Shown one piece after another: positions 5,863-51,196 of a stretch of DNA of 64,000 nucleotides. The translations under genes were made by a program, and so were the position numbers. The first letter of the stretch is position 1; every line of letters starts with the position of its first letter. Under the pieces are notes generated by a model, which saw nothing but the letters and a program-made list of their open reading frames with translations, made no database searches and had not been told where the DNA came from. Source of the stretch: Hyphochytrium catenoides (Eukaryota; Sar; Hyphochytriomycetes; Hyphochytriales; Hyphochytriaceae); contig FLMG01001379.1 of the NCBI GenBank assembly GCA_900088475.1, positions 23,445 through 87,444 of the forward strand. Direction: 5' to 3'.

Positions 5863-7040
5863 TAGTCCCCTCCAACTCTCTCGTGTAATATAAGACTTCG
5901 TGTACTCGTAACAGATTGAACAGCCCTTCAGTCTTTTCCTGGCCTTGCTGTCTGCGTGCCTCATAGAGTCATCAGACTGTAGGAACAGCCACCGAACGGT
6001 ACGAGTTACATCGACGTCGCCGCGGTGGGCACCCAATAATGGCGTGTTTCCCAAAGTTATCTTCCCCCCTTTGTCCATACAGAGTCAGCATTGGACAGCC
6101 AGCCCGCTAGTCATATCCCAGCCAATGGGAGGCGAGATCCAGGACAAGCAGCCAATCGGAGGGAAAAGGGTTGTACTTTGCCCTTGCCAGTTCTGGTGCC
6201 TCATCACCACGTGAAACCTTCACAGAATCATTGAAAGAAACTTACCCTTTAACACCACAGTTACAACATCAGTCCGGAAAGATTCAGCCATATCATAGCT
6301 TTCACTCTCGAGGGCGGACAGCATTGCATAAGAACGGACCCAAACAGCCCCAACTGCCCACTGCCATGGAACCAACAAGGAGCCAACAAACTTTGTCCTC
6401 TGAAGCCCGTTATAATCCTAGACCCGCAACGAACCAGCACTTAAGGAAAGGGGATGATCGGTTATGGTTTTATAATGGCCGATAGATATCGAAGAGGTTC
6501 TTTTGTTCTATAGTCTTAGACGAACCTTAGGTAAACTTAGGTAATTTAGATAGTCCAAAGAATAAAAGCGCGGGTTACGGAAAGCTCTGATCACCCCCTC
6601 CAAAGTGTGTGAGAGGAGGGGACAGCTTCACGTCTCTACTTTTGTATGATAGTTCTATCTCGATAATAATAAGAGCCGGACTCTACCACAAGCATGAAGA
6701 AGAGTTTCCAGAGTTCAAGAGAAAGACAGAGCTTATGAGACCCGCTGTATCTCTTCTGGCGCCGAACATCATCAGCCAGATTTCCCGACATTGCCCGCAA
6801 AGACCCCGACCCTCCTCACACTCATCGTTTGAGCTCAAGCGGCAAGGTGGGCGGAGCTCCAGGTTCCTGAGTTCGTTCATTCTGGCCATGCCATAACCTC
6901 CTTCTCCTGCGCCGTGCACCATCAGTCTCCACTCTTGGGGCATTGTGCAGACTCAGCAGCATATGAGCTGGCCAATCGTCAGTGTTTAAGCTAGGGTGAG
7001 CCACATACGGTAGGCTCAAGACTGAGAAATAACTCCCAAA
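5863..7040. other. Intergenic region, no gene seen
   Basis: Nearly 1.2 kb upstream of the acid phosphatase. Open frames here are short, overlap on both strands and have no family resemblance. I see no RNA gene or repeat. Confidence 0.5.
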
Positions 7041-8654
7041 ATGAGGCTCTACGCAACAGGCATCCTAGCCGCGGTTCTCCTTTCTTTTCCTCAGGCGGAG
7101 TGCCAGGACTTTCCTCTGCGACTATTCGGTATTGGTGACTGGGGCAACACGCAACCGGAGACAGGAGCAGACAAAGATGCACAGCGGAGAGTGGCAGAAG
7201 CAATGGCAAAGTATGGAGCTTCGGTGCGCCCTGTCGCGGTGGCAACCCATGGGGACAACTTTTACTGGGGCGGGCTGGCAAATCCTAACCATGAGAAGTT
7301 TCAAGAGGCGTTCGAGAACGTCTACACCGGAGATTCGTTGAAAGATGTTCCATTTCTGTTGACTTTAGGAAACCATGACATAGGAGGCAATGCCTACTTA
7401 TGCGGCAAGGATCCGGGAACTAGTGCACAACACGACAAGTGGCATGTACCATGCAACAGTAAGCAGGAAGCGATAGATGCAACACGCATGTATTACCAGG
7501 CATCTCAGAGCTACAGTTCTCAGAAGAAAGGCTCTGGAAGGCTTACCTTTGATGGAGCTTACTATATGCGGGCGTTTAAGGTGGGCTCGCTCAGTGTGGA
7601 AGTCTATATTGTGGATACCAATGTAGTCGATAGTGGACATATTTGCTGCCAGAAGGACGGCTACGGACAATGTGCGGACCGCATGGGCGGTGTCCCTAGA
7701 GAAACCTTTGATGGGTGTATGGAAGTCTTACGACAATCCTTCAGCGAGAGCATGGCAAAACTCGGGCAGGATTTGGACAAGTCAACGGCAACTTGGAAGG
7801 TTGTGAGCACCCACTACTGTCCCACAAGACATATTGGAGGGCCCGAACTCCAGAGCATTGTCAGCACGGTGAAGGACAGGGTACATGTATGGATGTGTGG
7901 GCACACCCACACAACGGTTCATGACTATATGAGCGTACCGAAACTGCACGTTCTCATGAATGGTGCTGGAGGTGGGATTGTTCTTGATGGTCCTTCTTCT
8001 CTGGGGGAATCTGGCGAAGTCAGTACGGTCTGGGCCCCTCCTCGATCAGCCTATGCGTTCACGGATCTTCAGATGTCTGCAGAGTGGATGAAGATTAGCT
8101 TCGTCACCTATGACACGACTGTTACTGGGGGAAAAGAGGTAATGGCGTGCAGGGCCATTCCGGTCAAACCAGGACCAGCAGTGGAATGCGACACCCTGCC
8201 GTCCCAAGCCCCCGCGGTCGAGCAGCCCCCCGTTGGTGACAAAGCTGCTAATCAGTCCTCAGAGGGCAGTGCCCAAGAGCCAGGCGGCACTCAAGGCGAC
8301 TCTTCGCCTACGGCTTTGCTCTTGCCTACCACGACTTCTTCCTCAGTTGACAACGTAGTACAGCAGGGGAGTATCATTGGTAGTGACTCTGGTGATCCCA
8401 CTGCTGTCAATGAGGCAGCCGCGTCGGGAGCGAGTCGGAACAGCACTACCGTGATGCTCTCAGTGGTAATGTCCTTAGCAGGTGTGGGAGCAATTGTGGT
8501 AGGCGCCGCGATGTGGTATAGACGACGACGGAACACTAGGTGGAGAGCTAGCGAGCTGCAAGAATCTATGGTCTACGATCCTAGGAGCAGAACGCCTAGA
8601 GAATCTTCAGTAGTGTTTGACTCGCGAAGAGGCACCACTCTACTGCGACTATAG
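7041..8654 (+). CDS. Membrane-anchored purple acid phosphatase (metallophosphoesterase), intronless
   Basis: A 537-residue single-exon protein of the small purple/tartrate-resistant acid phosphatase family, which hydrolyses phosphomonoesters with a binuclear metal centre. All metal-binding blocks are visible: GIGDWGN (D33), HGDNFYWGG (D72, with Y75 as the iron-ligand Tyr), LGNHD (N111), VVSTHYC (H258) and MCGHTHTT (H288, H290). Residues 1-21 form a signal peptide ending near AEC. The catalytic domain ends at about residue 375. A Ser/Thr/Pro-rich stalk of about 90 residues follows, then one transmembrane helix (about 470-493), an RRRR stop-transfer stretch and a 40-residue cytosolic tail. It is therefore predicted to be a type I membrane protein with an outside or lumenal active site. 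The absence of introns is unusual beside its neighbours. Confidence 0.92.
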   Translation: MRLYATGILAAVLLSFPQAECQDFPLRLFGIGDWGNTQPETGADKDAQRRVAEAMAKYGASVRPVAVATHGDNFYWGGLANPNHEKFQEAFENVYTGDSLKDVPFLLTLGNHDIGGNAYLCGKDPGTSAQHDKWHVPCNSKQEAIDATRMYYQASQSYSSQKKGSGRLTFDGAYYMRAFKVGSLSVEVYIVDTNVVDSGHICCQKDGYGQCADRMGGVPRETFDGCMEVLRQSFSESMAKLGQDLDKSTATWKVVSTHYCPTRHIGGPELQSIVSTVKDRVHVWMCGHTHTTVHDYMSVPKLHVLMNGAGGGIVLDGPSSLGESGEVSTVWAPPRSAYAFTDLQMSAEWMKISFVTYDTTVTGGKEVMACRAIPVKPGPAVECDTLPSQAPAVEQPPVGDKAANQSSEGSAQEPGGTQGDSSPTALLLPTTTSSSVDNVVQQGSIIGSDSGDPTAVNEAAASGASRNSTTVMLSVVMSLAGVGAIVVGAAMWYRRRRNTRWRASELQESMVYDPRSRTPRESSVVFDSRRGTTLLRL

Positions 8655-9986
8655 AAGCGACGATAGTAACGGTCGCTAGTTGACTCGTGTGTTAACAATT
8701 CGTATTTATTGGGGCTCGCCCTGTGATATGCTCGTTCATCTTGACTAGTCGCGTGCTGTTCGTGGCTCTTGCGTTAACTATCGATAATTGGGAAAAGTAT
8801 TAGTTCATCAACTCATGTGGCCAGCCGTTCTTTCTTTTCTTTCCCTAGGACAGGAGCTCTTGACCCCGAAGCTGTACCCACAGCCACTGACGTTTAGCGC
8901 AGAGAGCGCCACTTTGCCTAGTGACAGTGTCCTCAGTAGTGCAATCATTGGATAGAGTAGGCCTTAGAGGTTGTCATGGGTCCCTAATTACACCTTTTCC
9001 GTCGCCAGATGACAGGTGAATCGGTCTTTCCCTCTCTCTTCAGACACTCACCCAAGATGACCCTTTACTGATTAGTTCTATGCCGAAAGTCTGCTAGCTA
9101 GCTGCAAGCCTCAACAATGCATGACCGAGCGAAGCCTGTTGGGTCCTCTACTACTGGAACTTCCTAGCAAAGTCTCATGATGCTGCAGGATATCTATAGG
9201 AGAGCAGGGTGGAACGGGGTTGGGGGAGGAAGGGGAAAGGAAAATCTTTCCCCTCGGTCAAGCAAAGTCTGATGGGGAGCTGATTTTCCCTGATACCCCA
9301 GTTTGGCATATATGTCAAAATCGGGCTCTTTGATCTCTATGTTTCTGAACCCATCATCCTATCGAAAGGGTGTCTTGGGAAATAAATGTCACATTCGACT
9401 TTGTTCCTTTGACGACCTGACGATCTTATTCCACCACTCTTTCCCCCATCTCTCTCGGACTCTTCCTCACCTTTGGCCCGTCCTTTCCTCTGCTTCTAGG
9501 ATACGTCTTCTGCCTCTGTCTCTCTGCTCATGTCATCGTCTCCTGTCATCATCGAAACCCAATCAGCATCCCAGACCAGCCTCGCTCCTCCCTCCTCCCA
9601 CCACTGAGCAGGCGTCTCCCTCGCTCTCTCCTCCTCTCTGTTCTATGAGGATCGAAAAGCTTCTTCACTCTTCCTCTTAGCGCGTCGTGCAGGGTGACGT
9701 GTTCAAGCCCCCGCTCTCCAAACTCCTTCCTCCTCAGCAGCTGCCGTTATAACAGCGCAATACCTTGATCTGCTGGTCATTCTAGGGTACATACCGGCGC
9801 TGGATTGACCAGATAGTCTCTCTTTGACCCAAGTCATCAGCCCTGATAGGATCACATCGTTTCCTTCGTTTTGACGAGATCTGGTCGTCCAGACCTCATT
9901 TGTGAATTTGACTCTTAGTCTTCAAGACCGATACAGACGCCAACGCATCTACTTACCGATCTTCGCCGCTCAATAGGACAAGGAGC
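8655..9986. other. Intergenic region with CT-rich stretch
   Basis: About 1.3 kb without a supported gene. A pyrimidine-rich stretch at about 9430-9680 produces a long Ser/Pro/Leu-rich open frame that looks compositional, not coding. The last 300 bases presumably contain the promoter of the old yellow enzyme gene. Confidence 0.5.
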
Positions 9987-11132
9987 ATGGTAGAGACAAG
10001 GCATAACCCAGTAGCTCCGGAGCTTGGATCTCTCCGGACGGTGGACATGTTCACTGCCATACAGATTAGGGGCTTGACCATCCGGAACCGGATCATGTTG
10101 AGCCCAATGTGCATGTACCATTGTGAAAACAAGGACGGAGTTGCATCTGACTTCCACGTCATGCACTACGGAACAAGGGCGCTGGGAGGGACTGGCATTG
10201 TATGCGTAGAGGCAACCGCAGTGGAACCAAAGGGCCGAATTTCTCCTCAAGATCTAGGGATTTGGGGTGACGAGCATGTAGAGCCTCTTAAGCGGGTCAC
10301 TAGCATTATCAAGGAGAATGGCGCTGTCCCAGCCATTCAGCTAGCTCATGCAGGAAGAAAAGCAGCAACTTATAGGCCCTGGGGCGTAGGTACTAAGAGA
10401 GGGGCTATTCCTGAGGACGAGAGCTGGGAACTTGATGCTCCAAGTTCTATCGCATGGGGCACGCACTATCCTACCCCTCGTGAGCTAACTGTGGACGAGA
10501 TCAAGGAGAAGGTCAATCTCTTCAAGCAAGCTGCAGAGAGAGCCCTAGCCGCCGGGTTCCAGATTATTGAGATTCATGGGGCCCACGGCTATCTCATCCA
10601 CGAGTTCCTTTCGCCTGTCACCAACAAGCGGACGGACAGCTATGGCGGGAGCTTCGAGAATCGTATAAGCTTTCTCTTGGAAGTCGTGGATGCCGTTAGG
10701 AGTGTATGGCCCGAAGATCTTCCTGTGTTCCTCCGTATTTCAGCTGATGATTGGCATGAGAGTGGCTGGACGCCAGAAGACTCTGCTCGTCTAGCCCAAG
10801 TGGTAAGGGAACACGGCGTGGACCTTGTCGATTGCTCCGCAGGAGCTATCTCAAACGACGTCAAGTACCCAGCATCTCTCGGTCAGCAAGGCTATCAAAT
10901 TTACCTCGCTGAGAAGGTGAAGAAGGAAGGCGGCGGTGTGCTTTCAGGCGCCGTAGGAGGCATCAAGGAGCCTGCATTTGCCGACAGCATTATAAAGGAG
11001 GGTAAAGCTGACATCGTGATTATTGGGCGGCAAATGCTTGCAGACCCATTCTGGCCTAATCATGCAGCTGTGGAGCTGAAGCAGAGAGAGCGGTTAGACT
11101 ATGCCCCAGTCTACAGATGGGCGATCAAGTAA
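9987..11132 (+). CDS. FMN-dependent old yellow enzyme, YqjM/NamA type, intronless
   Basis: NADPH-dependent flavin oxidoreductase of 381 residues, reducing activated C=C bonds such as those of enones. It follows the bacterial YqjM/NamA-like class closely: SPMCMYHCEN near residue 40 (C42 at the redox-tuning Cys position), the FMN-contacting VEATAVEPKGRIS, QLAHAGRKA, the substrate-binding pair in EIHGAHGYLIHEFLSP (H197, H200), then TDSYGGSFENR, and the phosphate-binding end with GAVGGI and IIGRQMLADPFWP. No signal peptide is evident. The gene lacks introns, unlike most neighbours, so acquisition from bacteria is possible but untested. The ATG at 9987 leaves a short N-terminal extension before the barrel. 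Confidence 0.92.
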   Translation: MVETRHNPVAPELGSLRTVDMFTAIQIRGLTIRNRIMLSPMCMYHCENKDGVASDFHVMHYGTRALGGTGIVCVEATAVEPKGRISPQDLGIWGDEHVEPLKRVTSIIKENGAVPAIQLAHAGRKAATYRPWGVGTKRGAIPEDESWELDAPSSIAWGTHYPTPRELTVDEIKEKVNLFKQAAERALAAGFQIIEIHGAHGYLIHEFLSPVTNKRTDSYGGSFENRISFLLEVVDAVRSVWPEDLPVFLRISADDWHESGWTPEDSARLAQVVREHGVDLVDCSAGAISNDVKYPASLGQQGYQIYLAEKVKKEGGGVLSGAVGGIKEPAFADSIIKEGKADIVIIGRQMLADPFWPNHAAVELKQRERLDYAPVYRWAIK

Positions 11133-12020: not shown

Positions 12021-15000
12021 ATGACAGTAGCACAAGTTCTCCTCTTCCTACTATCGATTCAGACTTATGGAAAGTTTACGGTGGCAACCCGTGCAGGTGA
12101 CGATATGCTGCTTCCTTGACTGACCCGATGCAGGCCTTTAACCATAACCCGCTCATGCACCCCTGCGCCTATAACTTGACACTCCTGCTGTCTACCCTCG
12201 GTGTCTGCGACTCCCAGCTTGGTTGGAGGCTTCCGATAACTGTACGCAAGCCTGCTTTCAATATTGTGCTTGTCCATTGGGCATAAATAAGGTGCAGAGC
12301 TTACACACAATAGCTGCTGCATGATAGCGTGTTGATGGGTTTGAATGACGCTCTTCCAGGTACCTTGTAGCGGGAATGGGAACTGTATCGAGGGTGTCTG
12401 CCAGTGCTTCGGTGGATTTGAATCGTCTGATCCTACTCAAGCAAACTGCGATGTTTGTAAGTGGAAGGAGTGTGCCAGTTCCCTCTGCCAACCTGGATCT
12501 TCAGACATCAAGTGCTACCTGATCCGCTTCTGTCCCTCCTTGCCTAAGTCTTATAAGGTTGATTGTCTTTTCCCTCCTCGCCTGTCAATCCAGTAGTCTA
12601 GTAGCTTCTCTCCTTTGATGCAGTAGCTCTCCTCAGCTAAGCCTCCCTAGACCCTGGTATGTTAAGTTAACAGCACTTTCTTAACATCTGCAGTGGTTCT
12701 TGGCATAAGCAGCTACCCGTACCTCATAGCTACCACTGCAGCAGCCATCACTCTCATCATTACCATCCCGTCCTCGCTCATGGTTTTCCTACTGCGGCGG
12801 AAGAAGTCAATCATTGAGATGAGGCCAATTCTTTCCCAGCTGATCAATGGTGGCGTGGTTCTAGGAATGAGCGCTCTTCTATATGCCCTGAATAATGAAT
12901 CTTCCAACGCGGATTGTGCTGCCATCTGGGCCGTACTGGACTACTCCTTCGTCATTACGTATGGGACGCTTCTCCTCAAGGTACACCGCATCTCATTCTA
13001 CGATGTGCGGGACACACTCAGGTTTGGCGCTTAGTGGCATGTCTTGTGGTTGCAGATGTTGAGTATCTCTCGGACTGTGACATCCAAGAACTCCATTGCA
13101 TTGGACGACCGATGGGTTATGAAGGGCCTACTAGCCCTCCTCCTCATCAACACAGCTGTACTTGGTATTGTGTATGGTAAAATGACCCTCGTCTATCTCA
13201 GAACTCATCCCTTGATCGCCTGACTACTTCTTCCTCCTTTTCCGATATGGAAAAGGGGTTCAGGGCGTGGACACTTTCAGTGACAGTCAGACAGCGAGTC
13301 AGCTTAGCCGGGAGGAGGGAATCACTGCTATGGTAAGGAACCTTGGTCAGCGGTAACTAGATGGCTTAAGCATTCATGTCTTTGGAAATACGCCAAGAAC
13401 TTTCAGTCCTGTTGCCCGACTTGGGTTGGGGCTCTAGTCTGTGCCAGTCGCCCAGTTCTATCTCTTGACAACTGAGAGTAGAACCTTGAAGTTTTATAGC
13501 ACGTCTTCTCCACAATTGCCTGACTTTCTCGGACCGCCACAGGGCCCGGACCAGTCTGATGAATATTTAATCTTGCTGTGCTTCTGATTGGTACAGACAT
13601 ATCGCGGCTGTGTCTTGAGAGACTATGGCCTCATTCTCTCCATAATCATAACTAAGGCCCTCCTTGTCCTTGGAACTTTCATCATCAGCTTCAGGTCCAG
13701 AAGGGCCCCGGAGCCCCATGGAGGTATGCAGATTGTTATTGGGATATTCATATTCCGGCCGTTATTGTCTCGCCTTACATTCCCCATTCTTACCTCTCTC
13801 TTCCAGCGGAGAGTCGGGCCATTCTCTTCGCCATCTTCACTTCGGGTTGCGGTTGGGGTGTGGCCGGGCTACTCCTACTTCCCAATCTTCAGGTCCCTGG
13901 CGTAAATTATCAGTATATGTGTGTCTCCATAGGCATGGCGCTTTCCTTCGTAAGTATTCACTACTAACTGGTCGTTCCCTACTTTCGGCTAGTCAATGGT
14001 TGTAACATCTCACTTTACTGCTCAATATCCTTAACATGGTCTCATCGCCGACCATCCCTCTCTCACTGAACTGCTCTCGTGTCCAGAGTATCTGTGTTCT
14101 ATCTTCGGTGGGTCCTGCAATGCGTAACCATTTCTATAGCAGCCGCTCACGGTTTCTGGTAAGTGGCTTGTCCTCGATAACACTAAGCCTTCACCCCCAG
14201 GATCCTCATTATGCTCACCAATATCACCCCATTGCCTCTCTGTGGCTTATTGCCCACAGATTGCTCCAGTCCATTTTTTGAGCCTATCAGCTAAAGGAGA
14301 CGGGCTTAATGTGCAGGACCCTGGCAGCGTTAATGACCTGCTTATAAAGACCGACTGGTCAGGTAAGTTGAGGAACAATGTGGCCGATAGAGCGACAAAG
14401 GAACTTCATCCACACCCTCATTCGGCGGGGCAGAGCGCAGCGTGCATCCCATCTAAAGTAGGGCGAGAAAAGAAGGCTGGTTACCAGGCAGATAACAGGG
14501 AACATAAGACATTGACAGTCTTTCCTTAGACTTCAATAAGGTGGAAAGACTACACCAGCAGTTGGAGACATTGGGCTACCCGCTCACATCGTTGCCAGAG
14601 CTTCTTCTTTTCCTCCTGTCCGGGGACATCAAGATAAATAAAATGAGAGCCTATGCGGTGCGCTGTCTAAAGGTATTCGGCCCTTGCAGCCTTTCATCGT
14701 GTTGCCATGGCAGAAGATCCTTCGTCCTCCACTGTCTTTATCTGATCTTGGGCTCCCTCATGGTCCGTAATCAATGTCACGCTTAACTGTGTACTCTTTG
14801 TTCTCAAGCTTGCGCGATTTATCTCAGCTTTCCACTCGTGAATCTCTTCTTGGCATTCTTGGTCGCCCTGCACCGAATGATGTACTCCATGGGCCTCAGT
14901 TTGCACCTGCCTTCAGGAGCTGGACAGCACAGACCTGGAGTTCCTACTCCCACAATTGGTACAGGCTCTACGTTATGAGCCCCAGCTCAATGATCCTTCT

Positions 15001-18000
15001 TGTGGCCATTCTGAAACCCGGCATGCCTGCGAGGATGAGAGCCCGCTTGCATCCTTTTTAATAGCAAGAGCGATAGAAGAGGAGGTGTTCGGCACTGCTT
15101 TCCATTGGCAACTAGAAGTAGAGCTTCATGCCGAGATGTTGGTTACCTACAATGTGGTACGAGGCAGGAAGAGACTTGTAGAGATGTCGGTCTCCTTTTT
15201 CTTCGTCCTATATAGGCTCCTTCGGCTCCCTTTTCCCTTCTTGTTTCAGGCCTGCCTAGGCTAATATGCATACGAGGAGTCAACGGATTCCGTAGATAGA
15301 ACCAACACAGCCTGTCCTTCGACTGTTGCTAAGCTAAGCCTGGTTGGCGCCGTAGGACGGATTTCTTAAGAAGGTGTCCAGACCGAGTGATGTCATTTAC
15401 ATCTACAAAGGGTAAGTTGACCTGCTGAGGCGAGAGAACGAAGGCAAAATGAGAGAGCAGCCGGTTCTGAGCAATGGCTGTCGACGGCCATATCCAGGAC
15501 CAATGCTCGCACTCTTATACCCATATGATTGCCAGGGTTCAAGAAGTATTCATGCGAGAGCTGAAGGCAAAAAACCCCGAGCTGCTGCAAAAGATTCAAA
15601 ACCAGCGCAACTTCATGGCCAGGATTCATGAGGCGTGGAACGAGGCTGATGAGGAGGGAGGGAGCGCCTCCCAGAAGACAACCTATCTGCAAAAGAGTCT
15701 GGAAGCAGGGTAAGGATTGGCTAGTAGATTGCCCTCTGAAGTAAAAGAAGGTGGTCATCTGGTAAAGTCCATCAATGACCGTAAGAGAAGACAGAGAGGA
15801 CGGAGAAGAGCGAGGAGGAGTTAAGATAAATGGAAGTAGAGTAGTACGGGGTGAAGAAACACGTAGTCTCAGGAAGCGCAGGGTTGAAGACATTCAGAAG
15901 CAAGGCTAATAGCTTTTTTCTTACGCAAGCGGGAAGTACGAAGACCTTGCACTTCTGTCACCTGGCACTACCCACCCACTTTACCCTCAAGTGATAGTCA
16001 AAGGACTAGATCCTCGTGGCTGCTTTTTTCTGAAGAGCAAGACACGACCCCTTTTGGTTGACTTTGTCATAGACAAGGAGGCTATGATCAAGCGTGAAGA
16101 GGAAAGGATAAGGACCAAGGAAATGGTGGGCTACCTCCTCTCGGTCTCCATGACAGACCGCTCCATACTGCAGTGTGTGATACCCCTGTCTCCTAAGCCC
16201 TATCACAGACTGCTCCTATTTATTGACTGTTGCCCTGGTAGATCTAGAGTTTAACTTAGAGCTCTCGACTTTGCAGGAAGAGTTCTACTCTGAAGACGAT
16301 CAGGTACCCCAAGGAACTAAAAAGATTGCCAGCTACATTCAAAATGGGACCCTTACGTCCTACACTTCGCTCATCATTTGGCTAATCCTTTCACCCATGC
16401 GCGCCTGTCTGTAGGTCAACGCTAAGAAGTACCGCATCAAAATAAAGAACCTGAAAGCAGAGCAACTCCTGAACTTTGACTCCAGCAGCCTAAGTGACCC
16501 TTTCATCTGTGTCGAGTGTCTAGGCAGAATAAAGGCCACAGAGTAAGACCTCTTGCGACACGGTCTTTCGCACGCTTAATATTCTTCTATAGACTTCCCT
16601 GAGCTTCAAGGCTTTCCTTTTTTCTTGGTTATCTCCTCTGAGCATACGTTGAGTAGGCTCTGACAGTTGTCTCTTACTTACGTATTAGGACTGTCATGGA
16701 CTCTCTCTCTCCCCACTGGAAGGAAGAACTAGTTTTCACCGTCGGGCTGCGTCCCGATGTCCTGCTCTTCTCCTTGTTTGATGATGATGACTTTGGCAGT
16801 GAGAAGAAGGGTGATCATAAACGAAAGAAAGACTTTCTTGGAGAGAATAGTGTTCTCATTGAGGATGGCTGGTGGTCTATGAGGTTAGTCCTTCCCTAGT
16901 TTGCCCCGTTCTCTTTGTGCTCAGATGTGTACGTGTTGCAAGGCATTTTCTGTGGGCTTGGCAATGCTACTTTGATCTCTGGAGCCGCTGTTCTTCATTA
17001 GTGACTCTTATCAAGTCTCTGGTCTTGCAGCAATGCGCTGATCTAAGCTTCTGACGTGAACAGTCCCGAAGACCAAGAACGCACAGAAAGGACCCTAGAG
17101 CTTGAATTGGAGAGAGTGAGGAGAGGAGGAGGTGGAACGGAGAAAATTAAGAGTGGCAAAGTACACTTTAGTATAATCTGCGAGGAACTCGCGCCTCATT
17201 CCCCACAACCGCCATCCTCGTCTCTTCCGCCTGTTCCCGGTGCAGTCGCTCATAAGTTCACTCCCATCGCACCTAGTGCCCTGGAGAGCAACTACAGAGA
17301 AAGAGCGAGACAAGCAGTTGAAGGATTTCTCTCGTCACACTCCTGCCGGCTAATTTACAAAGCAGGGGACAATCTTCGCCAAGACGTACTGGCGCTACAA
17401 CTGATGGGACACTTTGATTTTGTTCTGAAGCAGAGGGGCTTTGACTCGAAGATCACAAAGTACGGTTGTCTACCACTAGAGCCCACCCGGGTAAGCTCTT
17501 GTCCTCTTTGTTTCTAAACTCTCTAGTGTTTTAGCTGAGCTATAGGTCCTGCCAATATTTGCCTACGGGGTGCTGCCTCTCCTGGTTTCATCGACATTTC
17601 CATTATTCTGTCTCCTATACCTTGCAGCAGCCGTTGCCGTGTCCGTCTTGTTGGTCATCTTACTCTCATTAAATACTAACCACTCCGCTTAACTGTATCG
17701 ATTGCTGGGTGTCACATGTCTCGGATCTCCTCAGGGTTTCATTGAAGTTGTCGACGCTATCCCCATCAGCAGAGCCCTGAGTGATTATAGCTCGCTCTCC
17801 TCCTTCCTCAAGAGCAAAGCTGGCGATATAGTCATGCCCAATGGTCTCGTTTCTGAACCAGCTTTTCATTTGCATGCCTCGTCTCCCCTTCCAGCTTCGC
17901 CGTGAATACTCTCTCCACTGCGCTACGAACTTGATGTTAACACTTAGTGTATCTGGCCTTCTGTCTAGAAGAATATGCTGCCCCATTCAGCATTCTTCCA

Positions 18001-18903
18001 TGGCCATTAATAGCGTTCGCCATTGCGATCTTTACCTCTCATTCTTCTCGTAGGCATTCAGAAGGATATCTACAGCAACTACGTGCATTCCCTTGCGTCT
18101 GCCTGTGTACTTTCCTTCGTGCTGGGGGTGGGAGATCGCCATCTGGACAACATCATGATAAGCCCTTGTGGGAAAGTGTTGCATATAGACTTTGGATTTC
18201 TCTTTGGGAATGATCCGAAACCATCTCCCCCTCCATTCCGTCTCACACCTGAGATGGTGGCCGTTCTGGGAGGTCCAAGAAGTAAGGTGAGAGTATAAAA
18301 CGACGAGGTCACGAAAGTAGGACTTAGAGGAGAATACGCTATGGTGCCAGATAGCGCAGGGCAACTAAGCGCTAGCAGACGCAAGGGGGGTGGGCCACTA
18401 AGCAAGCAGGGCCAGTGAACTGACAGTTTCCCGCTCCTGTGGGTTATCCTCTGCTGCCAGGAGTTCAAGTTCTTCATACGCCTTTGTCAAGACATCTACA
18501 TCACCATACGCGGATCACCATCCCTCTATCTGATGATGGTCAATCTTATGAGAGATGCAGGCATACCTGACCTACAAGAAAAGCCAGATAGAGTTCTTGC
18601 GGAGGTGAGTAAGTCTCTGACATGGCTCATGCCCAATCCTCTCTATCTTTCGGTCCGTGTAGATGTAAGTAGCTCTCAGTTTTTGAATGTCTGCTCTCGA
18701 GCCGAAGGATAAGCGATGTATGAATCTATCATAACCGAGCTTCTCGCTTAATTCAGCTCCGCGCCAGATTGCTGCTTGGCAAGGACGATAAGAGGGCCCA
18801 AAAGTTTATGAAGCGGTTGGTACTGGAGAGTCAACAGCTCAGTACAGCTGTCCGGCTTAGCGTACAAGAGCTCCTTCACAAGTTTGCCGTCACTTTGTCA
18901 TAA
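12021..18903 (+). CDS. Predicted fusion: EGF-like/class C seven-helix receptor joined to a PI3-kinase
   Basis: A putative receptor lipid kinase. Exon 1 (12021-12096) encodes a signal peptide (MTVAQVLLFLLSIQTYG). Exons 12218-12291 and 12360 onward add a Cys-rich, EGF-like ectodomain (NCTQACFQYCACP; CSGNGNCIEGVCQC). Exons between about 12694 and 14160 give seven hydrophobic helices with the class C Cys pair (NADCAAIW above TM3; TYRGC before TM5). TM6 and TM7 run through FAIFTSGCGWGVAGLLLLP and YMCVSIGMALSFSICVL. The next exon (about 14270-14362) continues in phase 0 straight into the PI3K helical domain (LLIKTDWS, DFNKVERLHQQLE, PQLVQALRYE). The kinase domain follows: CFFLKSKTRPLL, then an inserted C2 domain, IYKAGDNLRQD, GVGDRHLDN, HIDFG, and a tail ending at 18903. 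All catalytic motifs are intact. Least certain are the borders after TM4 (near 13177) and the exons at 15160-15470. Confidence 0.7.
14270..15160 (+). other. Junction and PIK helical domain of the receptor-kinase
   Basis: The receptor exon ending SSRSRFL at about 14159 has a GTAAG donor in phase 0. The acceptor at about 14270 opens IAPVHFLSLSAKG and flows into LLIKTDWS. A phase 1 intron then leads to DFNKVERLHQQLETLGYPL (about 14532 onward) and AVRCLK, and a phase 0 intron leads to ELDSTDLEFLLPQLVQALR (about 14920). This is the helical (PIK accessory) domain. The usual upstream class III C2 domain and the first helices are missing, and there is no room for a separate promoter and start. Confidence 0.7.
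16073..17345 (+). other. C2 domain inserted inside the PI3K catalytic N-lobe
   Basis: Two neighbouring strands of the kinase N-lobe are separated here. CFFLKSKTRPLLVDFV is encoded at about 16018-16070 and RLIYKAGDNLRQD at about 17347-17387. Between them lie a charged helix (KREEERIRTKEM), a short acidic exon, and a C2 domain over three exons: YRIKIKNLKAEQLL and SLSDPFICVECLG (from 16415), SLSPHWKEELVFTV and LFDDDDFG (about 16690-16885), and KSGKVHFSIICEE (to about 17190), then a Pro-rich linker. Asp residues in SDPF and DDDDFG lie where C2 domains bind Ca2+. In known PI3-kinases only a short loop joins these strands. Confidence 0.7.
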
Positions 18904-19070
18904 ATTTGTTCACACTGAACGGAAAGACGAGTAGGTGGCTACGGGGTGCCTTTAAAGTAACGAGCTTCTTGTCCAATTGGCAAAGGCGCCGCTTAGTTCT
19001 CTATGCATTTAGCAGGGCTGTAGAAAGGCAGTCGTGAAGGAAGTCTTCACAGATAACGTCCTTAAGATGT

Positions 19071-22000
19071 CTATAGCCACTGCATTGCTTTGAAGGAGTA
19101 GTGAGTACTAAAACAGAAAGACATCGCCAGGAGCCACCAATACAGGTAGCCGTATCGCTCCCGTAGCTCCGGCATAATATCGAAGTTCATCCCATACACA
19201 CCAGTCAAGAACTGCGCTGGCAAGAAAACAGCAAACACAATGATTGCAATCTTCATCCTCTTCTCAATGCGTGCCTCCTATATTCAGATCAATGTGCAAA
19301 GCGGACAAGAGAGTGAGTTTGGTCACTGCATCTGATCGTCGCTAGTAAGATGCATTCACCCTACCTGCATCTTGTAGAAAGCATAGGTTAATTTACGGCA
19401 TTGAGAGATAAAAGTGTCCACAAGTTCAACGGCCTGAGAGGAAAGCGATTAGTCAAGACCAAACCGCTTCCAAAAGAAACGCCGTCTGCACTGCAATTAG
19501 CAAGGACATCAGCAGCAGTGGAGGGTACAAAGGTGAATCGACGGGAAAGCCTTGGAGTGAACAAAGGTGACGAAAACTAAGAGCCATAGGTTATTGGGTA
19601 AAGAACATCAAACAAGGATCGCCAAAAGTGCTGGTAGAGATAAGAGGCGCATACATCGCTGGCATCATCTCTCGTATCTCTTAAGTAGAAGACAGTGTTG
19701 GTATCTATGGCAGATGCTGCGATGAACTGATTGATGACATCAAGGTAGGGAAAGAGAATGCGACGAAGCTTGGCCAGTTGACCGCTGTGACAGAAGATGC
19801 ATTAGTGACACTTTCCATGTATTGTAGATGCCATCTGGCGCAGTAAGCATCTCCATTCCCACAATGACATTCTAGAGTAACCTTTGAGCGAGATTCGCTG
19901 CTTACCTAAGCCTATGTATTCGCGAAATCTGGAATTGGTGGCGTTCAATGTTCATCTCGTGCTCAAGTATCTCAAGCTGCGTCTGAAAGGCCTCGACAAC
20001 TGCCTATCATAAGCAGGAAGGAAGAGCAGCGCTTAGTGAACTCTTTCGCAAGCGCTATGATGTGTTGAGAAGGTGGCCCAGCGAGGTGACCATGCAGATA
20101 TTGAGAGGCTAGGTGACAGTAGGCTAATGTATAAGGAATTTAGGAATTAGGCGCGCAAGGTGACAAATAGTCACCACACAGAGCCAAGACCGGCGACTTT
20201 TGGGAGAGCCTGGTGAGACTCAAGGAAGAGGGTTGCTAAGTTAGAATCAGGTCAGGAGACTCACCTTTGCCTCTCTAACCAGTTGATTTAGTATCTCATA
20301 CGTTAGGAAGACTGCTCCTCCTGTCCTAAGCCGCGAAAGGCGATGGTTCATCTTCGCCACAATACCGCTCCACAAATGAGGAGGGCATTGGTCTAATATG
20401 GTCAACACTGTGCAGTCTTCGACTACCAGGATGTTGACCTATGCCACAATGCTAGTTAATGCAGAGTATCCGAATGAAGGGCAATTTGATATCATTCACT
20501 CACGACCAGGAATCACGACGAAGGACCATAGGTTGAAAGCCATTCATTGCAATGAATATGAGGGTAACATGAAACGGCAAGACCATCACACTTTGAGGTT
20601 ATCTATGGATGTAATCAGGAACAGTGACACGGACATCTAATAACTCAGTCACGAGGAGGGAAAGGGGAAGAAAGAAGGGGATGTGGTATCTTCATCTTAA
20701 AACCCACCTGACCAAGCTTCAATTGCGTAAGATCGTCCATTGCAGGAATTGAGGGGGCAATTGAGGAGAGACTGTTTCCCTCGCTGTTCATAGAAAGGCG
20801 CTCCTCCAACTCTTCTAAAGCCTGATCTTTACGTTTGAGCTCCCTTATCGTTAATGCCTCCTCCACCTCCTCACTTTCTCCAAGAAGATGCAGCTGTTCC
20901 TCGGGGCCTCCAACCGATCTCCTCGACGCTGAGCTGCAACAACACGTTAAGCTCTATTCAGCAGAGCTGATGAGAAGAAGGCACTACAAAGAAGGCTCTA
21001 TTCTCCCACCGTAACCAAGCCTTGCTCTGTAAGCGCATAAGACGGCGTATAGCGTCGTTCCACTGCCCCGACCGTCTACCTCCTTGGACCTTAGGACTGC
21101 CAGCTAAGGTTCCGTATCTAAGGAGGAATTGGTGAGTAACGGTATCAGACAGATATGGAGCCTGAAGCAAAAGGAAGCTTCGTCATTGCAAAGTTTATAG
21201 TTTGCCTCTACCTGGAAGTATGCCGATGAAGGGCTTGGGGAGACGAGATATTGTGAGGACTGCTGCCAGTGCTGGAGACTCCTAGTGCGGCGCCTCTCTT
21301 GTCCGGTCCGGAGATATTGTTGAATTTCGTGGTGGTCCAGCCGTACCATATTCTAGATGGTTTGGCCAGCAGGTTTCCCCCATCAATCTCATCATGATGG
21401 AAGGAGCCGTCATCTTCGTCTCCGTCTTCGACGTTCCCCTGCCCTAGTTGAACGACCGGTAGCACAATAAACAAATGATGCTCGTGCTGCTCAATCTTCG
21501 GTCGTTGACCTAGGTGAGGAAGCAACAGAAGTCAATACGTATCGAAGATTACAAATAAGCACATAACGAGCACAAGAGCCTTCAGCTAACAGAGAAAGAG
21601 GGAGGAGGGGAAGACATTTTTTTGCGCAAGCAGACAGCTAGGTTCCTGATGGACGGTTATTAGTAACACTAACCAAAGTGAAGAATGTCTTCAACTGCCA
21701 GGGGATGCAGCCTGTGCTTCACTGCTAGCCGCTTAAGAGCCAACTCGTTAACTCCACGTAGATTGACCCACCGAACAGTTGCCCAGGGGGGTAGGTTTGA
21801 ATAGGTAAACCCTTCGAAGTCCTTGACGTGAAACAGAGAGCGCACCCTAAAAGAAAATGTTAAATCGCTGTCAAGAGGAGAATGTTATCGAATAGGCCCT
21901 CAACGAAATGCAGAGGACAACCACTAGCAGGCAGCTAAAAAAAGCATTCAGGAGTGCGCATCTGTTCTACAACATACAGTCTAGCCACGTGAAAATGACC

Positions 22001-24370
22001 AATTCAGCTTACCTTGATGGAGAATAGTCATGGACATCGAGTTCAACCGTGTCCTTTCTGAATGCTGAACCCTCAATAGATCTAACAGTGCTCGGGGAAA
22101 AGAGGTCTGCTAGCTTTATACGGAGTACCATAGATTCGAACTCTTCAAAGGTGACCCCGCCACTGTGGTCGCTATCCACCTATAGATGGGACCTTGAGCG
22201 GAGACTGGACTATCTATCCCTCTAATAGCGTTATTGTAGACCAAAAGAACGTTACTAGAGTAAGCAGAGGAACAAAAAAGAAGAGTCAAGATAAACCACG
22301 TCAGGGTGTTTTTAGGTACCCGTTTGAGCAAAGCCCTGAATGACGCTTGGTCCTCGCACCAGATGCCCAGTTGCTTGAGCCCCTCGTAGAAATCGTCGTA
22401 GGAGACCAATCCATCGGCTAATGCAGGGCACAACAGCCATGAATGGTAGGGGAAAGTTAGAAGACTACCAACCGGGCAGTGGAACGAAGCAAGTTTGTAT
22501 GCTGGAACTTGAGGGGAGGCAAGACTTAACATTTTCAAGAATCTTACCGTTCAGATCAAGTTTGGAAAACAATCTCTGAAGTAGACTTCTGGTAGTGTCG
22601 AAGTAGCTGGAGGGAACAGATCAGCGAGGTGTCGTCAATTCATATGCCAACAAATGCGTACACTACTGGCCACAGCATCTTATCAGCTTGTAACATTCAT
22701 CTTGAGCTATTATAGAAGCGTGCGCCCTTTCCAGCATGGAACTTACGGGTCTAGAAGTGAGAGGTCATCACTTATCTCTCGGTGTCTCTCTCCGTCGTCA
22801 AATGAGTGACGACGCCTGCTCAGTGGAGAAGCAATGACATTAAAGCCCTGCAGATCCACATCGCGAGTTTTGATGGAAGGAAATGTCTTTGGGCGAAGTG
22901 GGGTGGATCCTAAAGCGAGGGAGATTGAATAAAGTCAGAGTTAGCCCGCATGCCAAGCCTAAAAAGCGCCGAGCCCAATCAGGGGCAGATGAAGACAAGG
23001 CATAGAGAGGGCTAAATGGAATATACAGAGGGAGAAGATGGACGGAAGACACTCTCGTTCTCCTACCTCTTTCCTCCTTCCCAGAGTTTCGTTCATACTG
23101 AGCCAAAGTTTTCTTGGCCGATTCAAGAAAATAGGCTGTAGCGTTGTCAACATCCTGCGAACTCTTTCCTTCTTCATTCGTGGATGACTCGTCTGCAAAG
23201 AACGAGCTCTTTGATCTTTTCTCTCGATTAAGATCAAGATTCAAGCAGCTTAGATCGATTTTCTCCATCTTTCCCGAGCGCATCTTAGGTGTGCCATGGC
23301 CACGATTGCACAGGCTAGGAGCATACCTTTGTTCCTCTGGAGGCAAAACTGACTCCTGTTCAGAACGTGAGGTACTTTTATTGTCAGTGATGAATTCCAA
23401 GCACCCTAAAGAGGTAGCCAGCGGCGGAGAGCAAAAAGGCAGGATGAAGTACTAGTAATAACGGGACGAGCGACGGCAAGTAGAACCCAGCTAGTGGTAT
23501 GGGTTTAGAAGTAATCCTAACTCGAGCTCTTACCTCCTCCTCCTGTCCCGGCTTTTGATTGCTTCCCCAGAGCCAGTTTGTCATGCGATCCCCGATTGAC
23601 CCAGTGCGATAAAATGTGTAGGATTGTCTCTTGACTAGCAAAGGAGTGGTCTCGTACGAGTCTTTCGCCTGGATATGTTCAATTGCATCCTCTCCGTCCT
23701 TGGCGTCTGCTCTTGAGGCTCTTCTTCCAAAAGCCAGCTGCGTGACGGCTGGATTGCTAACAAAATCTCCATCGTTTTCTCCTTGTCTAAATTTATGCTC
23801 TGGCAGAACCGCAGTGGTGGTAATGTTCTGGTTGGCCTCTGGTCTTGAGCTCCGTCTGCCGAAAGGTAGCTGGGCAACCGCGGGGTTGATGGAGGTCTGT
23901 ACATCTAGATCGCCTTGCTTGTCGGGACCAGTGACAACGTGAGACGCTCCGTCACTATGCTGAGAGCCAACTTTAGCCTCGGGCCGGGACCTCCTCCTGG
24001 AGAAGGGAAGTTGAGCGACGGCTGGACTGATAGCCTTCTGACCGCTGCTCTCCCTCTGCCTCTCGGGTGGTGGCCCTACCGCAATAAGTCCACTTGGCTT
24101 GTGGTTACTTGTCTGCCCTGACTCTTCAGGGCGAGATCTGGATCGTGTAAAAGGGATTTGCGCTACTGCTGGGCTTATGTTACGGGAGCGCTGCTCTCCA
24201 GAAAGACTATTACCTTCTTCAAAATTTCCTTCCAGGTCTTTTGAGCGGACATGCTTCTTGGCCTCAGCCGTCGGTGAGCTTGAGGAGGAACCAGGATGGG
24301 ACCCTTGTCTGACGGGATCTGTGCTCAGTGGGAACTGGGGTGCTTCCCGAGATGAACTATTGCTTTCCAT
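19071..24370 (-). CDS. CorA-type Mg2+ channel with paired EF-hands and repeat-bearing N-terminal tail
   Basis: Divalent-cation (Mg2+-type) channel with a probable Ca2+-sensing module. Read from 24370 downward: a 279-residue first exon of disordered, Ser/Arg-rich sequence with four repeats; a charged linker with KKTLAQYERN and SRRRHSFDDG; EF-hand 1 (DLNADGLVSYDD, split by an intron at about 22440-22550); EF-hand 2 (DSDHSGGVTFEE at about 22140-22188); then the CorA cytosolic domain (ATVRWVNLRGVNELALKRL, HRLHPLAVEDILHF, RPKIEQHEHHLFIVLP), a long helical part, TM1, the signature YGMNF and TM2 (about 19256-19075). Both EF loops have the required acidic positions. An in-frame stop just upstream supports the start at 24370. 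It is convergent with the receptor-kinase, 167 bases apart. The junction after exon 1 (23534) is not resolved. Confidence 0.8.
23705..24178 (-). repeat. Four-copy protein repeat with basic Ser motif in the CorA N-terminal tail
   Basis: Residues 65-81, 114-130, 161-177 and 206-221 of the CorA gene product repeat the pattern (I/S)(S/N)PAV(A/T)Q(I/L)(P/A)F, then one small residue, then R and a Ser/Arg cluster ending SR. The copies are spaced about 45-49 residues apart. Their ends read RSRSR, RRRSR, RRSSR and RRASR. The sequences between copies are unrelated, so only the motif is conserved. Confidence 0.85.
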
Positions 24371-27281
24371 TGGGGCTCGTGCAGATCGAGCTTCTCCCTA
24401 GGCGATGTTCAGTGTCTCCATGCAATCTTCGCCATGGTGCCAATCACTTGAGCCCCACACTTCCACAAAGCGTTTCCCTTGACTCTACTGTTCGACTTGT
24501 ACCTGATGTCGTCGCCCGCGTGAAGACTAGACAGCCCCTACTACCTATAGGGAACGAGTTCCATCTGAGACCGCGACTCAGAAGGTGAGGTCCTCAACCC
24601 GTGCGCCGCATGGTCAGCTTCTCTCTATGAACAACTCCTCTTACTATAAAGAACGACGTGCACCATATGAGCGAAGCAGCAGCAATGTTCTTCTGTCTAT
24701 CATTTTATTGTTAAAGATCTGATCTGGTTAACACTGTGACGAAAAGAAGCGTTTTTAAGGTAACCTTATACATGGTTTACATAAGTAGTAAGGGTAAAGG
24801 CCTTTATTTTACTGTACGGGCGGCATTGCATGACCTGCTGACACGGACCAGATATCTTCGTATAGTTTCGGTCAGTGAAGCCGTGAAGCTGGCTGATCTT
24901 TTGACCATCATCAAGTTACAGAGGGAGCATACAGTCAAGGAGGACATAGAACAGCTAGAACAATCGTGCCATCTTTTTATAGGAGTTCATGAGAGGGAGG
25001 CGCACATCATCAGTCATATAGTGTGACATAGCTATTATATGTCGGTACCGCTAATTATAATCTGTCGATATTATAGTATCACCTCACGCCACAATCTCAC
25101 TTTCTAGCAGCAGCAAGCCTAGCAGTACAAGCCGTAAGGCCCCGCTTTAGCCTTGCAGTAGTAGGTTGAAGCACGTTACTACCTTATTATGACAGAGGAC
25201 CTGAGATCAAGGTTTGGAAGGATAAATCACAATCTACTTTCATAAATAACATCCGCGTCGCATTGACGATGCTTATCTTTATTTCTCATAATACTGATTA
25301 TAAGGGCTGCTTACTAGCATTCAATGCATCTTCAGACGATTGCAGATTCTCTTGTCCTTAATATTTTCCTCCTTCCTTCGTCTTCTTCAGATGAGCTGAT
25401 TGGCGCGTATTCACCCATATACGATGAGTGCTGTTGTCTACGTCTCTTTTTCCTTTATTCAGCGCGGAGTGATATTGCCCCTCCTCCTGCTGCCTTGTTG
25501 AATCACTTCCTTCCTGACAAGAACCACCGTTGGTCCCCGAGTGCTCCCTCTTGTGTCAAATTATTTCTTTCTTTCTTTTTCCCGCATTTCTTCCTCTTCT
25601 TGCACCGTCTTTTCCCACTTCTTTTGGGTGGTGAAGGCCAGCAGTTGCTGTTGACGGTGGCGTAACTCACATAATTCCCCTCCTTCCATCAAGAAATCTT
25701 CCAGGAAGAGGGTTGGTTGAGATGAAGAGTCATAGAGCCGGCGGACATGATTCTCCTTGCTCTTGAAGAACTGCAAGATAACTACGGGCGTCTTTGAAAG
25801 CCATGGTCACGTGAGAAGCCACCTATAATTGTATCTACCATAGCTCATGTTGCCTACAACAAACTAATTAAAAATCTACAGGCTAAGTTTGTTACGCATC
25901 GCCTCAGGGGCTTAGGGTTGATTCAAGAGCGGATCGGCCACTTTTCGTCACGAGACCTTTCAGTATTGAGACCGTCCATACTATCTAGTGATGACGCCTA
26001 TTATAGTCTTCTTTCTGTCAACACGATGACAGAAGAGAAGCATCTCCTTGTTGTTGGGGCAGTATGCTTGCAGGTGCCGCAGTATATGTCGCAGCATCAT
26101 GCGGTTCAACAGCTTCGATGATTTAGCCAGACTCGGAGAACACAGTCTTAGGTAAGACGTCGGGTAGGCGTGGTTCCTGAGCATTAGCAGCTTTTTGAGA
26201 GGGTCCACGACCCGATCGTACTCTCTGGCTATCGCTGTCATCTTATAGCAGGTACTGCTAGGCGTCTACAATAGGGACCGGTCCGCTCCTCTCTGATGTT
26301 CACACTCTCATCAAACAATATAAAAAATAGTAGTGACCGCATACTCACAGACCTCAATCCTTCGGGATACACAAGTTGATGGGTTCGCGCCTTCCAGTCG
26401 TGATGATGGTGTATATTGTATCCCTGCTCACCTTATTCCATATAGAAAACTGATGACTGATGACGGCAAAGGGTTTGGGGTGACACTGTGGCCTCCTCTC
26501 TATCATCAACCGGTAAGGCCATCTGAATGATCTGCAGCACCATTTGACAATGTGGTCAGCTGTCAAAGATCTTGAGCTGGTTGGCACTTCCTTCCTTGGT
26601 CGGCATAATAGCCGGTCAAGACCCAAAACGAAAAAGAGCTTGTCCTCACTACCCTTGAAAGGAAGCAGAAGCCCGCCACCAGTGTCCATCCTCCATACAG
26701 TTCCTAGTGCGGTAGGTTCTTAGGAAGGGAAGGGTGGACAGTGGGAGGAAAAACTGTGTTTCTGACCCCTGGATACAGGCTTGCTAACACTATACGAAAG
26801 GTAAGTGGTCTTATAACTGATCAGCTGTCCCGTGTAAGGAGGTAGGTGCGGGGGTTGACCGAAAGATGCGAATCATCATCCTTCCAATCCATCATCTTGC
26901 TGCCTGATGACACTTCATCACTCCGAGAGCTCATGCTACTCTCCTCTCCCAACAGATAGAGCTAGCAAGGAGGAGATGACCCCTAGCAGAGAATGGTAAA
27001 GTCCATGAAGGCAAGGAAGAGGCGTAGACTTTGCGCTGCCATCATCCTTTCTACATCGACGATCAAGGATGAGCTGACCGCAGCATAGAACCACATTGTC
27101 CGAGCATGAAGCGAAAGAGATTGTTATCATAGATAGATACGGAGCCGGAGACAGAAGTCGACCTTTGATCGATTCACAGACCGCGGTCTCTTTTGCCAAA
27201 GAACAAAGGGGCAGGAGAGTGACTAACAAAGGAACTGGAGCTGTTCACAGCTTGGATTTGTAACTTCGCAAGACTCGAGCC
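24371..27281. mobile_element. Gene-poor stretch with possible decayed LTR-retroelement
   Basis: No intact gene is seen in about 2.9 kb. On the minus strand, 26689-26354 encodes a stretch (LFFVLGLDRLL, then LTADHIVKWC, RLMIERRPQ) whose order of motifs recalls the core of a Ty3-type integrase. Another frame at about 26400-26340 continues with a degraded HHHHDWKARTHQLV, similar to the usual integrase continuation. This implies frameshifts. A short plus-strand frame at 24736-25026 is unrecognised. I find no terminal repeats or target-site duplication. The base composition is a little richer in A and T than that of the flanking genes. Confidence 0.3.
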
Positions 27282-28684
27282 ATGGAGAGCGCAGGAATCG
27301 ACGTCACGGGCGCCGAAGACTGCGAGTCTTTTGAGCTTTGTCAGTCTGATGGCTTCAGCGAAGTCTTTTATGACACAAGAAACACAACGGTGACACCACT
27401 CTTTGAAGCTGGCAGCAGAGAAGAGGTAGAAAGGAGAGATAGCTTGAGTAAGTGGCATTCTATGCTTTAACGGTTCGGTTCCCATCCTTACTATTGTTTG
27501 TGTCTTTAGTTAGTAGCACCATTGATAGTGCCAAAGAGGCCCTGGGATCAGCCATGACGGATGAGCAGCTGGCTTCGCATGCCTCTAGAGTGAAACAGTT
27601 GTTGACGCAGATGCTATCTGGAGACAGATGTGTGAAGTTGGTGGCCACTGTCGTCTCTGGTCTGTTGATTGCCTCTAGGGCAATGCAGAATATCACCTTC
27701 TGCAAGGCAGCTGCCGCAAGTCTAAGACAGTCTGCTACAGTCATCCGGCAGCCCATAGTGACTAACACTATGGCGAGATGCTTGGATGTTGCGGCTATAG
27801 CATTAGAGAACGAGCAGGTGACTACAAGTCTATCAAATTCATTGGCTCAAACTGCGGCGACCCTAGAGAATGAGACTGTGGCAGCCACCGTGGAAGTCAC
27901 TGCGGAATCGTTGGAGAAAGCCTTTGACAAAACAATGAAGATAATGAACCTTGCACTTCAGAACGAACGGCTCTCTGAGGTTGCCCACAAGATTTCTACC
28001 AATGAAGTGGTCAAGCAATCAGTCACAAAGACTGTTGAGATTATGGAGCAGGCTATGGAGACATCTGCTGTGAGGACGACTGTACAAACCGGGAAGTACA
28101 TAGCGCGCAAGACTCTAAGCAACAGACATGTGCAAACTGTTGGAAAGACTGCATTAGATGTAGCCTTCAGAGTAGCAGGAGACGAACGAGTCCAGACATT
28201 CGCTAGCAAGAATATAGAGTTTGCGGCAACGGCAGCGAGTGCAGTAGTCAACAATCAAGGCTTTAACAAGGCTTTCCGTCTAGGCTCGGATGTCGCGACG
28301 GCTGGAATGAGCGCAGTTGAATCTATCTGGGTCTATGCCTCGGCACCAGCAAGTCTGGTCCCGGCCTCTTTTCAGAAAAGAACACCTGAAAGACAGCTAC
28401 TTCTCGACGTGGTTGACGAATGTGGGCTAAGCGGACAATGTAGCGACCTCCATGCACTGTTAGCTGAGAGTGAGGCAGCCAGACGCGCTCTCATGACTTT
28501 GGCTCTACAAGCAAGAAAGGAACTTGAAAGCGAAAGACATGCCCATGCCCGCACATTGGACTATGCCAACGAACTCTCTATAGCTCTTGCAGCAGGAGTT
28601 CGGAGACTCAACCCTGACATCCATCTTCACAAGAAGCAGACTGATATTGCTTTGGATGGTCGTCTGTTTGCCCCTGTTCACTAA
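27282..28684 (+). CDS. All-helical repeat protein of unknown function, 2 exons
   Basis: Not recognised. Exon 1 is 27282-27447 and exon 2 is 27510-28684, joined in phase 1 by a clean 62-base intron, for 446 residues. The first 60 residues are acidic and hydrophilic. Residues about 70-350 are almost entirely predicted helix made of imperfect units of about 20 residues. Units often begin with NE or a similar pair, then V, and carry small residues (A, S, T): examples are ALENEQVTTSLSNSLAQTA, LENETVAATVEVTAESLE, LALQNERLSEVAHKIS, SNRHVQTVGKTALDVAF and GDERVQTFASKNIEFAA. The C-terminal 80 residues form a charged coiled coil (SEAARRALMTLALQARKELE). There is no signal peptide or clear membrane helix. 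The small-residue amphipathic pattern recalls lipid-surface or senescence/spartin-type helices, but this is only a resemblance. Confidence 0.8.
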
Positions 28685-51133: not shown

Positions 51134-51196
51134 NNNNNNNNNNNNNNNNNNNNNNNNNNNNNNNNNNNNNNNNNNNNNNNNNNNNNNNNNNNNNNN
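51134..51196. other. Assembly gap (63 N)
   Basis: A run of unknown bases interrupts the 5' part of the VASt gene. The true length is unknown. Confidence 1.

Follow-up and report, generated by a model that had tools for sequence, protein, structure and literature searches.

A putative receptor PI3-kinase joining a class C-type seven-helix domain to a Vps34-type lipid kinase in Hyphochytrium catenoides

In GPCR-bigrams, a G protein-coupled receptor (GPCR) and a catalytic accessory domain are combined in one polypeptide. The GPCR-PIPK proteins, which include RpkA of Dictyostelium and the GK family of Phytophthora, join the receptor to a lipid kinase of the PIP5K type, a family that we take to be PF01504, and have a published linker motif, LRxGI. 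Canonical Vps34 (PIK3C3) requires a complex with Vps15 and Beclin, and the phosphatidylinositol 3-phosphate (PI3P) that it makes is normally an internal membrane-traffic signal under the control of multi-protein complexes. The oomycete GPCR-bigram survey, in Phytophthora infestans, lists six types, PIPK, TKL, INPP, AC, PDE and AP (PMC5784254), and RpkA is located on endosomal vesicles and phagosomes, not on the plasma membrane (PMC3206951). The gene described below occupies positions 12021-18903 on the plus strand of the window, the whole 64,000-nucleotide stretch of H. catenoides DNA that was analyzed, which is part of contig C361 in a draft assembly that totals 42.5 Mb in 1105 contigs. Judged from sequence comparisons, this one gene is highly likely to encode a receptor phosphoinositide 3-kinase (PI3K) that combines an EGF-like ectodomain, a class C-type helix bundle and a Vps34-type lipid kinase. 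The fusion itself is very probably real and conserved.

The predicted product corresponds to the general definition of a GPCR-bigram and resembles the oomycete proteins, which belong to the same lineage as the relatives named below, in placing a seven-helix receptor and an enzyme in one polypeptide. It resembles the GPCR-PIPK proteins further in that the enzyme is a lipid kinase, but their kinase belongs to a Pfam family other than PF00454, to which that of the window protein belongs. None of the six published types includes a PI3K, which is not mentioned in the accessible portions of two bigram papers (PMC5784254, PMC6033456), and no PIPK, TKL, INPP, AC, PDE or AP accessory domain was detected in the window protein among Pfam matches at E up to 0.1. 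Choanoflagellate GPCR-TKL/K and GPCR-TK proteins also are receptor-kinase fusions, but carry protein-kinase domains (PMC12716839). No GPCR-PI3K is named in the portions available of that catalog, of a ciliate GPCR catalog (PMC9960496), of an inositol review (PMC9694693), of the P. infestans kinome (PMC3019232) or of the RpkA paper, in which mentions of PI3K refer to other enzymes (PMC3206951). The original prediction, made from the letters of the window, held that GPCR-PI3K fusions had not been described; no published description was found in the open-licence literature, an earlier mention elsewhere being possible, and fused proteins were already present, unremarked, in public databases. The gene probably represents a GPCR-bigram type for which no description was found, in which the N-terminus of a class III kinase appears to have been replaced by a receptor.

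The receptor part was assessed in a Pfam scan that used curated cut-offs and listed matches to E 0.1. The 7tm_3 match (58.6 bits) lay well above its cut-off of 33.5 bits, in agreement with the seven-helix, class C-like domain that had been proposed. Residues C157 and C249, which we take to be the conserved class C cysteine pair of helix 3 and the second extracellular loop, align with columns that are invariant across the six fused relatives described below, so that this pair also stands as predicted. The assignment of a signal-peptide-like N-terminus and of the helices is based on a hydropathy scan. The cysteine-rich, EGF-like ectodomain fared less evenly: its cysteine pattern is shared by the window protein and the relatives P0035, P0038 and P0039, but EGF-type Pfam matches remained below cut-off. 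A Venus-flytrap ectodomain is typical of class C GPCRs, although it is not universal; the window protein has only a short EGF-like stretch. Searched against PDB sequences, the 7TM part produced no match at E up to 1.

Both PI3K helical and kinase domains that had been predicted on the same strand were recovered above cut-off, with 66.3 bits for PI3Ka (cut-off 31) and 138 bits for PI3_PI4_kinase (27.1); a C2 domain was matched with 39.3 bits (22). When the part after the linker was compared with PDB sequences, PIK3C3/Vps34 scored 217 bits, class I 133 bits and class II 125 bits among the best 60 of 153 matches. By this measure the kinase is closest to class III, and the helical and kinase tree, which holds no class I row, separates the window protein from two class II rows. 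This affinity makes PI3P, formed from phosphatidylinositol, the product to be expected from the family, so that the broader prediction of 3-phosphoinositides in general narrows to PI3P. Catalytic residues are present at K877, in the DRHLDN loop at 984-989 and in DFG at 1002-1004, which from general kinase knowledge we take to be the ATP-site lysine, the catalytic loop and the DFG motif. The DPKPxPPP segment that follows DFG matches Vps34 in the alignment and presumably points to phosphatidylinositol as substrate. These motifs are retained in the window protein, P0035, P0039 and P0041.

Vps34, the best PDB match, has in common with the window protein the kinase core, the DPKPxPPP segment and the C-terminal region. 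The window protein differs in the seven helices placed in front, in a truncated helical domain, whose PI3Ka match begins at profile position 48 of 185, and in the lack of PI3K_C2 (PF00792), the N-terminal domain of Vps34, which was absent at E up to 0.1 and also from the six fused relatives in hmmscan at E up to 0.01. A further difference is an insert of ~230 residues between two stretches of the kinase N-lobe that are ~10 residues apart in Vps34; scanned alone, this insert matched a C2 domain with 44.1 bits. Fused relatives also carry inserts in the N-lobe; C2 similarity is weaker in that of P0035 than in that of the window protein, and is absent from those of Achlya and Aphanomyces invadans.

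The original prediction suggested that proteins matching both 7tm_3 and the PI3K models be sought in related genomes. A search with the catalytic core (residues 955-1060) yielded 24 significant relatives from 111 candidates, and 6 of the 24 combine PF00003, PF00613 and PF00454 in one protein. These are P0035 (1047 aa), P0036, P0037 and P0038 of Aphanomyces astaci, P0039 of Achlya hypogyna and P0041 of Aphanomyces invadans; Aphanomyces and Achlya belong to the Saprolegniales of the Oomycota. In hmmscan, all six possessed the three domains in the same order as the window protein, with the 7tm_3 match of P0037 (31.1 bits) under the 33.5-bit cut-off. Alignment of five of them (P0035, P0037, P0038, P0039 and P0041) with the window protein was collinear at 26-31% identity. 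Collinearity extends from the EGF-like ectodomain through the C-terminus in P0035 and P0039, the only two that are near complete, and starts at helix 1 in P0041. The ATP-site segment is missing from both P0037 and P0038; in addition, P0037 has no ectodomain and no C-terminus, and P0038 has neither linker nor helical start. Where present, the ectodomain cysteine pattern, the 7TM cysteine pair, the truncated helical domain and the N-lobe insert occupy the same positions, and the linker ends in a common N-x-x-L-x4-W-x-D/N-V/F-x-x-V-E pattern. The PI3Ka profile begins at position 48 in the window protein and at 50, 49, 45 and 39 in the relatives, with more missing in P0036 and P0038 (92), compared to positions 2 and 23 in the unfused proteins P0034 and P0012. 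Loss of the PI3Ka start is expected if the receptor replaced the N-terminus of the kinase. Searches with the whole protein and with residues 90-560 (8000 candidates each) recovered no fused relative among 32 and 1 hits, respectively, a result of little weight. As fused relatives surfaced only in the dense search with residues 955-1060, absence from other lineages is not demonstrated. No match to P0035 was detected in a viral contig set.

Common origin was examined part by part. Among 55 proteins, P0035 was the first match for each of three parts of the window protein, with 92.6 bits for the 7TM part, 78.5 bits for the linker and helical part and 219.8 bits for the kinase; E-values in these searches assume 100,000 sequences. 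In a tree of the helical and kinase domains (20 selected rows, 477 columns; P0036 and P0038 omitted for missing pieces), five fused rows including the window protein formed one clade with support of 99/97. In the 7TM tree, which had 16 rows and omitted P0036 and P0037 as well as C433 and C896:8705-9385 of the own genome, a 100/100 branch separated five fused rows from 11 unfused class C receptors that this genome also encodes and with which the window protein shares 7tm_3. Both trees and the six relatives thus bear out the one-polypeptide GPCR-PI3K that had been predicted, and alignments and trees together show that the fused architecture of the window protein and its relatives shares common ancestry. 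As fused proteins are annotated in some water moulds, the joint looks real and old. A kinase-only tree was built from 33 of 56 rows (252 columns), the other 23 being dropped as PIKK-like, fragmentary, distant or near-duplicate. Separately, PI3-kinases with a FYVE domain (PF01363; P0013, P0042, P0044, P0045, P0048 and P0053) occupied their own 100/100 branch in that kinase tree.

The gene model was built by hand. The spliced frame comprises 23 exons and encodes 1130 aa without internal stop, and all 22 introns have GT-AG ends and matching phase. Splice sites were picked from three frames with GT-AG ends and phase as the conditions of selection; the model therefore proves only that such a frame exists, and independent support comes from the relatives. 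Two splice sites are weak, the acceptor of intron 5 (GAAAAG) and the donor of intron 20 (GTCTCG). The introns across the junction are 13724-13806 (phase 1), 13950-14086 (phase 0), 14159-14259 (phase 0) and 14363-14529 (phase 1), with the donors GTATGC, GTAAGT, GTAAGT and GTAAGT; number and phase are those predicted originally, but the coordinates had been wrong by up to 11 bases. Comparison with the relatives led to revised boundaries of 12021-12096 for exon 1 and 12218-12291 for exon 2. A first model of exon 2 (12134-12241) was dropped when the relatives pointed to another frame with the pattern NCTQACFQYCACPLGIN. The Pfam domain scan and the protein searches were run on the first model of 1136 aa, in which residue numbers after exon 2 equal the final numbers plus 6.

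A number of observations weigh against the proposed receptor PI3-kinase. The gene models of the relatives are automatic annotations that were compared as proteins. The GDDLRQD ATP-site segment is missing from all three A. astaci models, P0036 also sharing with P0038 the lack of linker and helical start, and P0037 and P0041 start inside or near helix 1. The window protein was flagged as a long branch in the helical and kinase tree and, with L059 and L060, in the 7TM tree, where the warning applies that long branches meet; in the kinase-only tree, the other fused rows formed a clade (99/96) and the window protein was unplaced. A strong C2 match is confined to the insert of the window protein, that of P0035 reaching 21.2 bits against a cut-off of 22. 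Searched alone, the insert matched no fused relative and just the C2-bearing P0030, and homology of the inserts therefore rests on their position and on the sub-threshold match of P0035. Moreover, the protein has no large ligand-binding ectodomain, so that binding of a ligand is hypothetical.

Two alternatives would dispense with the fusion. Neighboring GPCR and kinase genes might have been merged only in the gene model, and retention of intron 9 would indeed end the receptor at 14281 (frame 14006-14281). However, both parts occur in one protein in six annotated relatives, and exons 9 and 10 are separated by a single intron of 101 bases with GTAAGT and CAG ends. Exon 10 alone holds both the linker and the helical-domain start, and aligns to P0035, P0039, P0041 and P0037, whereas P0038 is without the corresponding part. 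The kinase was predicted to have no ATG-led 5′ end of its own, and indeed there is no in-frame ATG from the stop at 14137-14139 to exon 11, whose first methionine is already within PI3Ka. A stand-alone kinase thus would require an upstream exon that was not seen, or a non-ATG start, and it would have neither the helical start nor an N-terminal domain of its own. The two-gene reading was rejected on the missing kinase start, the truncated helical domain and the fused relatives, and is very improbable. An assembly chimera of a GPCR stretch and a kinase stretch is more improbable still: although the assembly is a draft of many contigs, the relatives show the same architecture, phase is kept, the only Ns in the whole window are distant at 51134-51196, and GC content is similar on the two sides (0.495 for the receptor, 0.489 for the kinase). 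The genes of the window are intron-bearing and of eukaryotic type.

Other alternatives accept the fusion and concern its operation. The polypeptide might be cleaved after synthesis into a receptor and a free kinase. Cleavage is among the models published for GPCR-bigrams, together with direct activation and G-protein relay (PMC6033456), but the linker is short (~46 aa) and can be aligned in P0035, P0039, P0041 and P0037, albeit at 18-29% identity, and this course is improbable. Alternatively, and compatible with the fusion, G proteins might carry most of the signal of the protein, the kinase being a constitutive source of PI3P or a scaffold that is not gated by ligand. In favor of this possibility, the 7tm_3 domain is retained and the genome holds further pieces of G-alpha in addition to at least one full-length match (364.7 bits). 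Conservation of the catalytic motifs tells against it, yet cannot separate gated from constitutive activity. Although rather unlikely, this alternative is considerably more plausible than cleavage.

In the predicted protein, a signal-peptide-like start leads into the EGF-like, cysteine-rich ectodomain and the seven-helix bundle, whose cytoplasmic tail runs straight into the kinase, the receptor taking the place of the N-terminal C2 domain of Vps34 and of the beginning of its helical domain. The kinase would, from its family, be expected to face the cytosol and to make PI3P from phosphatidylinositol at the membrane of the receptor, which may be the cell surface or, as for RpkA, an endosome or phagosome. 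If a ligand altered the helix bundle, or if receptors dimerized, access of the kinase to the membrane might change, with help from the C2-type insert, and PI3P would then recruit effectors of the FYVE or PX type. A ligand-gated class III receptor PI3-kinase that uses the C2 module of its N-lobe to make PI3P on its own membrane without G proteins or Vps15/Beclin is a tentative proposal; gating by ligand is speculative, as is action without Vps15 or without a G protein, the last of which the original prediction had put forward. If true, a receptor with a built-in enzyme would link signal to PI3P in one step, would be a seventh enzyme type beside the six catalogued in P. infestans (PMC5784254), and would offer a one-gene system in which to examine direct activation of an enzyme by a seven-helix receptor, something that the GPCR-bigram authors term unprecedented (PMC6033456).

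The genome contains further receptors and kinases of these families, 7tm_3 alone being matched 15 times at 14 places. No kinase domain was found in the nine unfused places that were scanned, of 13, each in its single open frame, and six of the nine had matches to a periplasmic-binding-protein-type ectodomain, one of them under its cut-off. These six (C995, C604, C633, C594, C913 and C365; L050-L054 and L060) are class C receptors in single long frames, unlike the intron-rich fused gene. C896 (L056, L057), C858 (L055) and C183 (L058) constitute a closely related group (four rows, 98/92 in the 7TM tree), and Pfam, at E up to 0.001, recognized no family in the long N-terminal parts of its three scanned genes. 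On C559, a Vps34-like gene retains the helical-domain start; its contig carries no 7tm_3 and ends ~1.9 kb upstream. A further PI3K-type gene is present on C579 (L046), and with both genes in the genome the fused kinase seems an addition, not a replacement. In frame translations, the non-coding stretches of the C579 gene seem rich in pyrimidine simple repeats. PIP5K-type matches amounted to 29 pieces, and chlorophyll-binding protein had no match in the genome.

Table 1. Parts of the fused receptor-kinase gene, with positions in the window
Feature	Position	Strand	Residues and details	Score
Exon 1: start codon and hydrophobic signal-peptide-like N-terminus	12021-12096	+	aa 1-25	
Exons 2-3 (12218-12291, 12360-12456): cysteine-rich EGF-like ectodomain	12218-12456	+	aa 26-82; CSGNGNCIEGVCQC at 12366-12407	
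Exons 4-9: class C-like seven-helix domain (7tm_3)	12694-14158	+	aa 83-358; C157/C249	58.6 bits
Exon 10, junction exon: cytoplasmic linker into helical-domain start	14260-14362	+	aa 359-392; VNDLLIKTDWS	
Exons 11-15 (part): N-terminally truncated PI3Ka helical domain and stretch into kinase N-lobe	14530-16068	+		
Exons 15-19 (part): kinase N-lobe insert with C2 domain	16069-17352	+	C2 at about 16430-16881	
Exons 19-23: class III-like PI3-kinase catalytic domain	17353-18903	+	stop 18901-18903	
Catalytic motifs	17353-17385; 18125-18151; 18182-18208; 18209-18253	+	IYKAGDNLRQD (ATP site); GVGDRHLDN; HIDFGFLFG; NDPKPSPPPFRLTPE	

Elsewhere in the window, three long open frames (23387-24397, 27452-28681 and 57815-60085) could be assigned to no family in Pfam (E up to 0.001). 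An open frame at 7026-8651 matched a calcineurin-like phosphoesterase with 36.4 bits. Frames at 19000-22000 on the minus strand, convergent with the fused gene, resemble a CorA-type magnesium transporter, an assignment that we base on a GMNF motif. Directly upstream of the fused gene and on the same strand, a single open frame at 9912-11132 matched NADH:flavin oxidoreductase of the old yellow enzyme family with 276.7 bits in Pfam.

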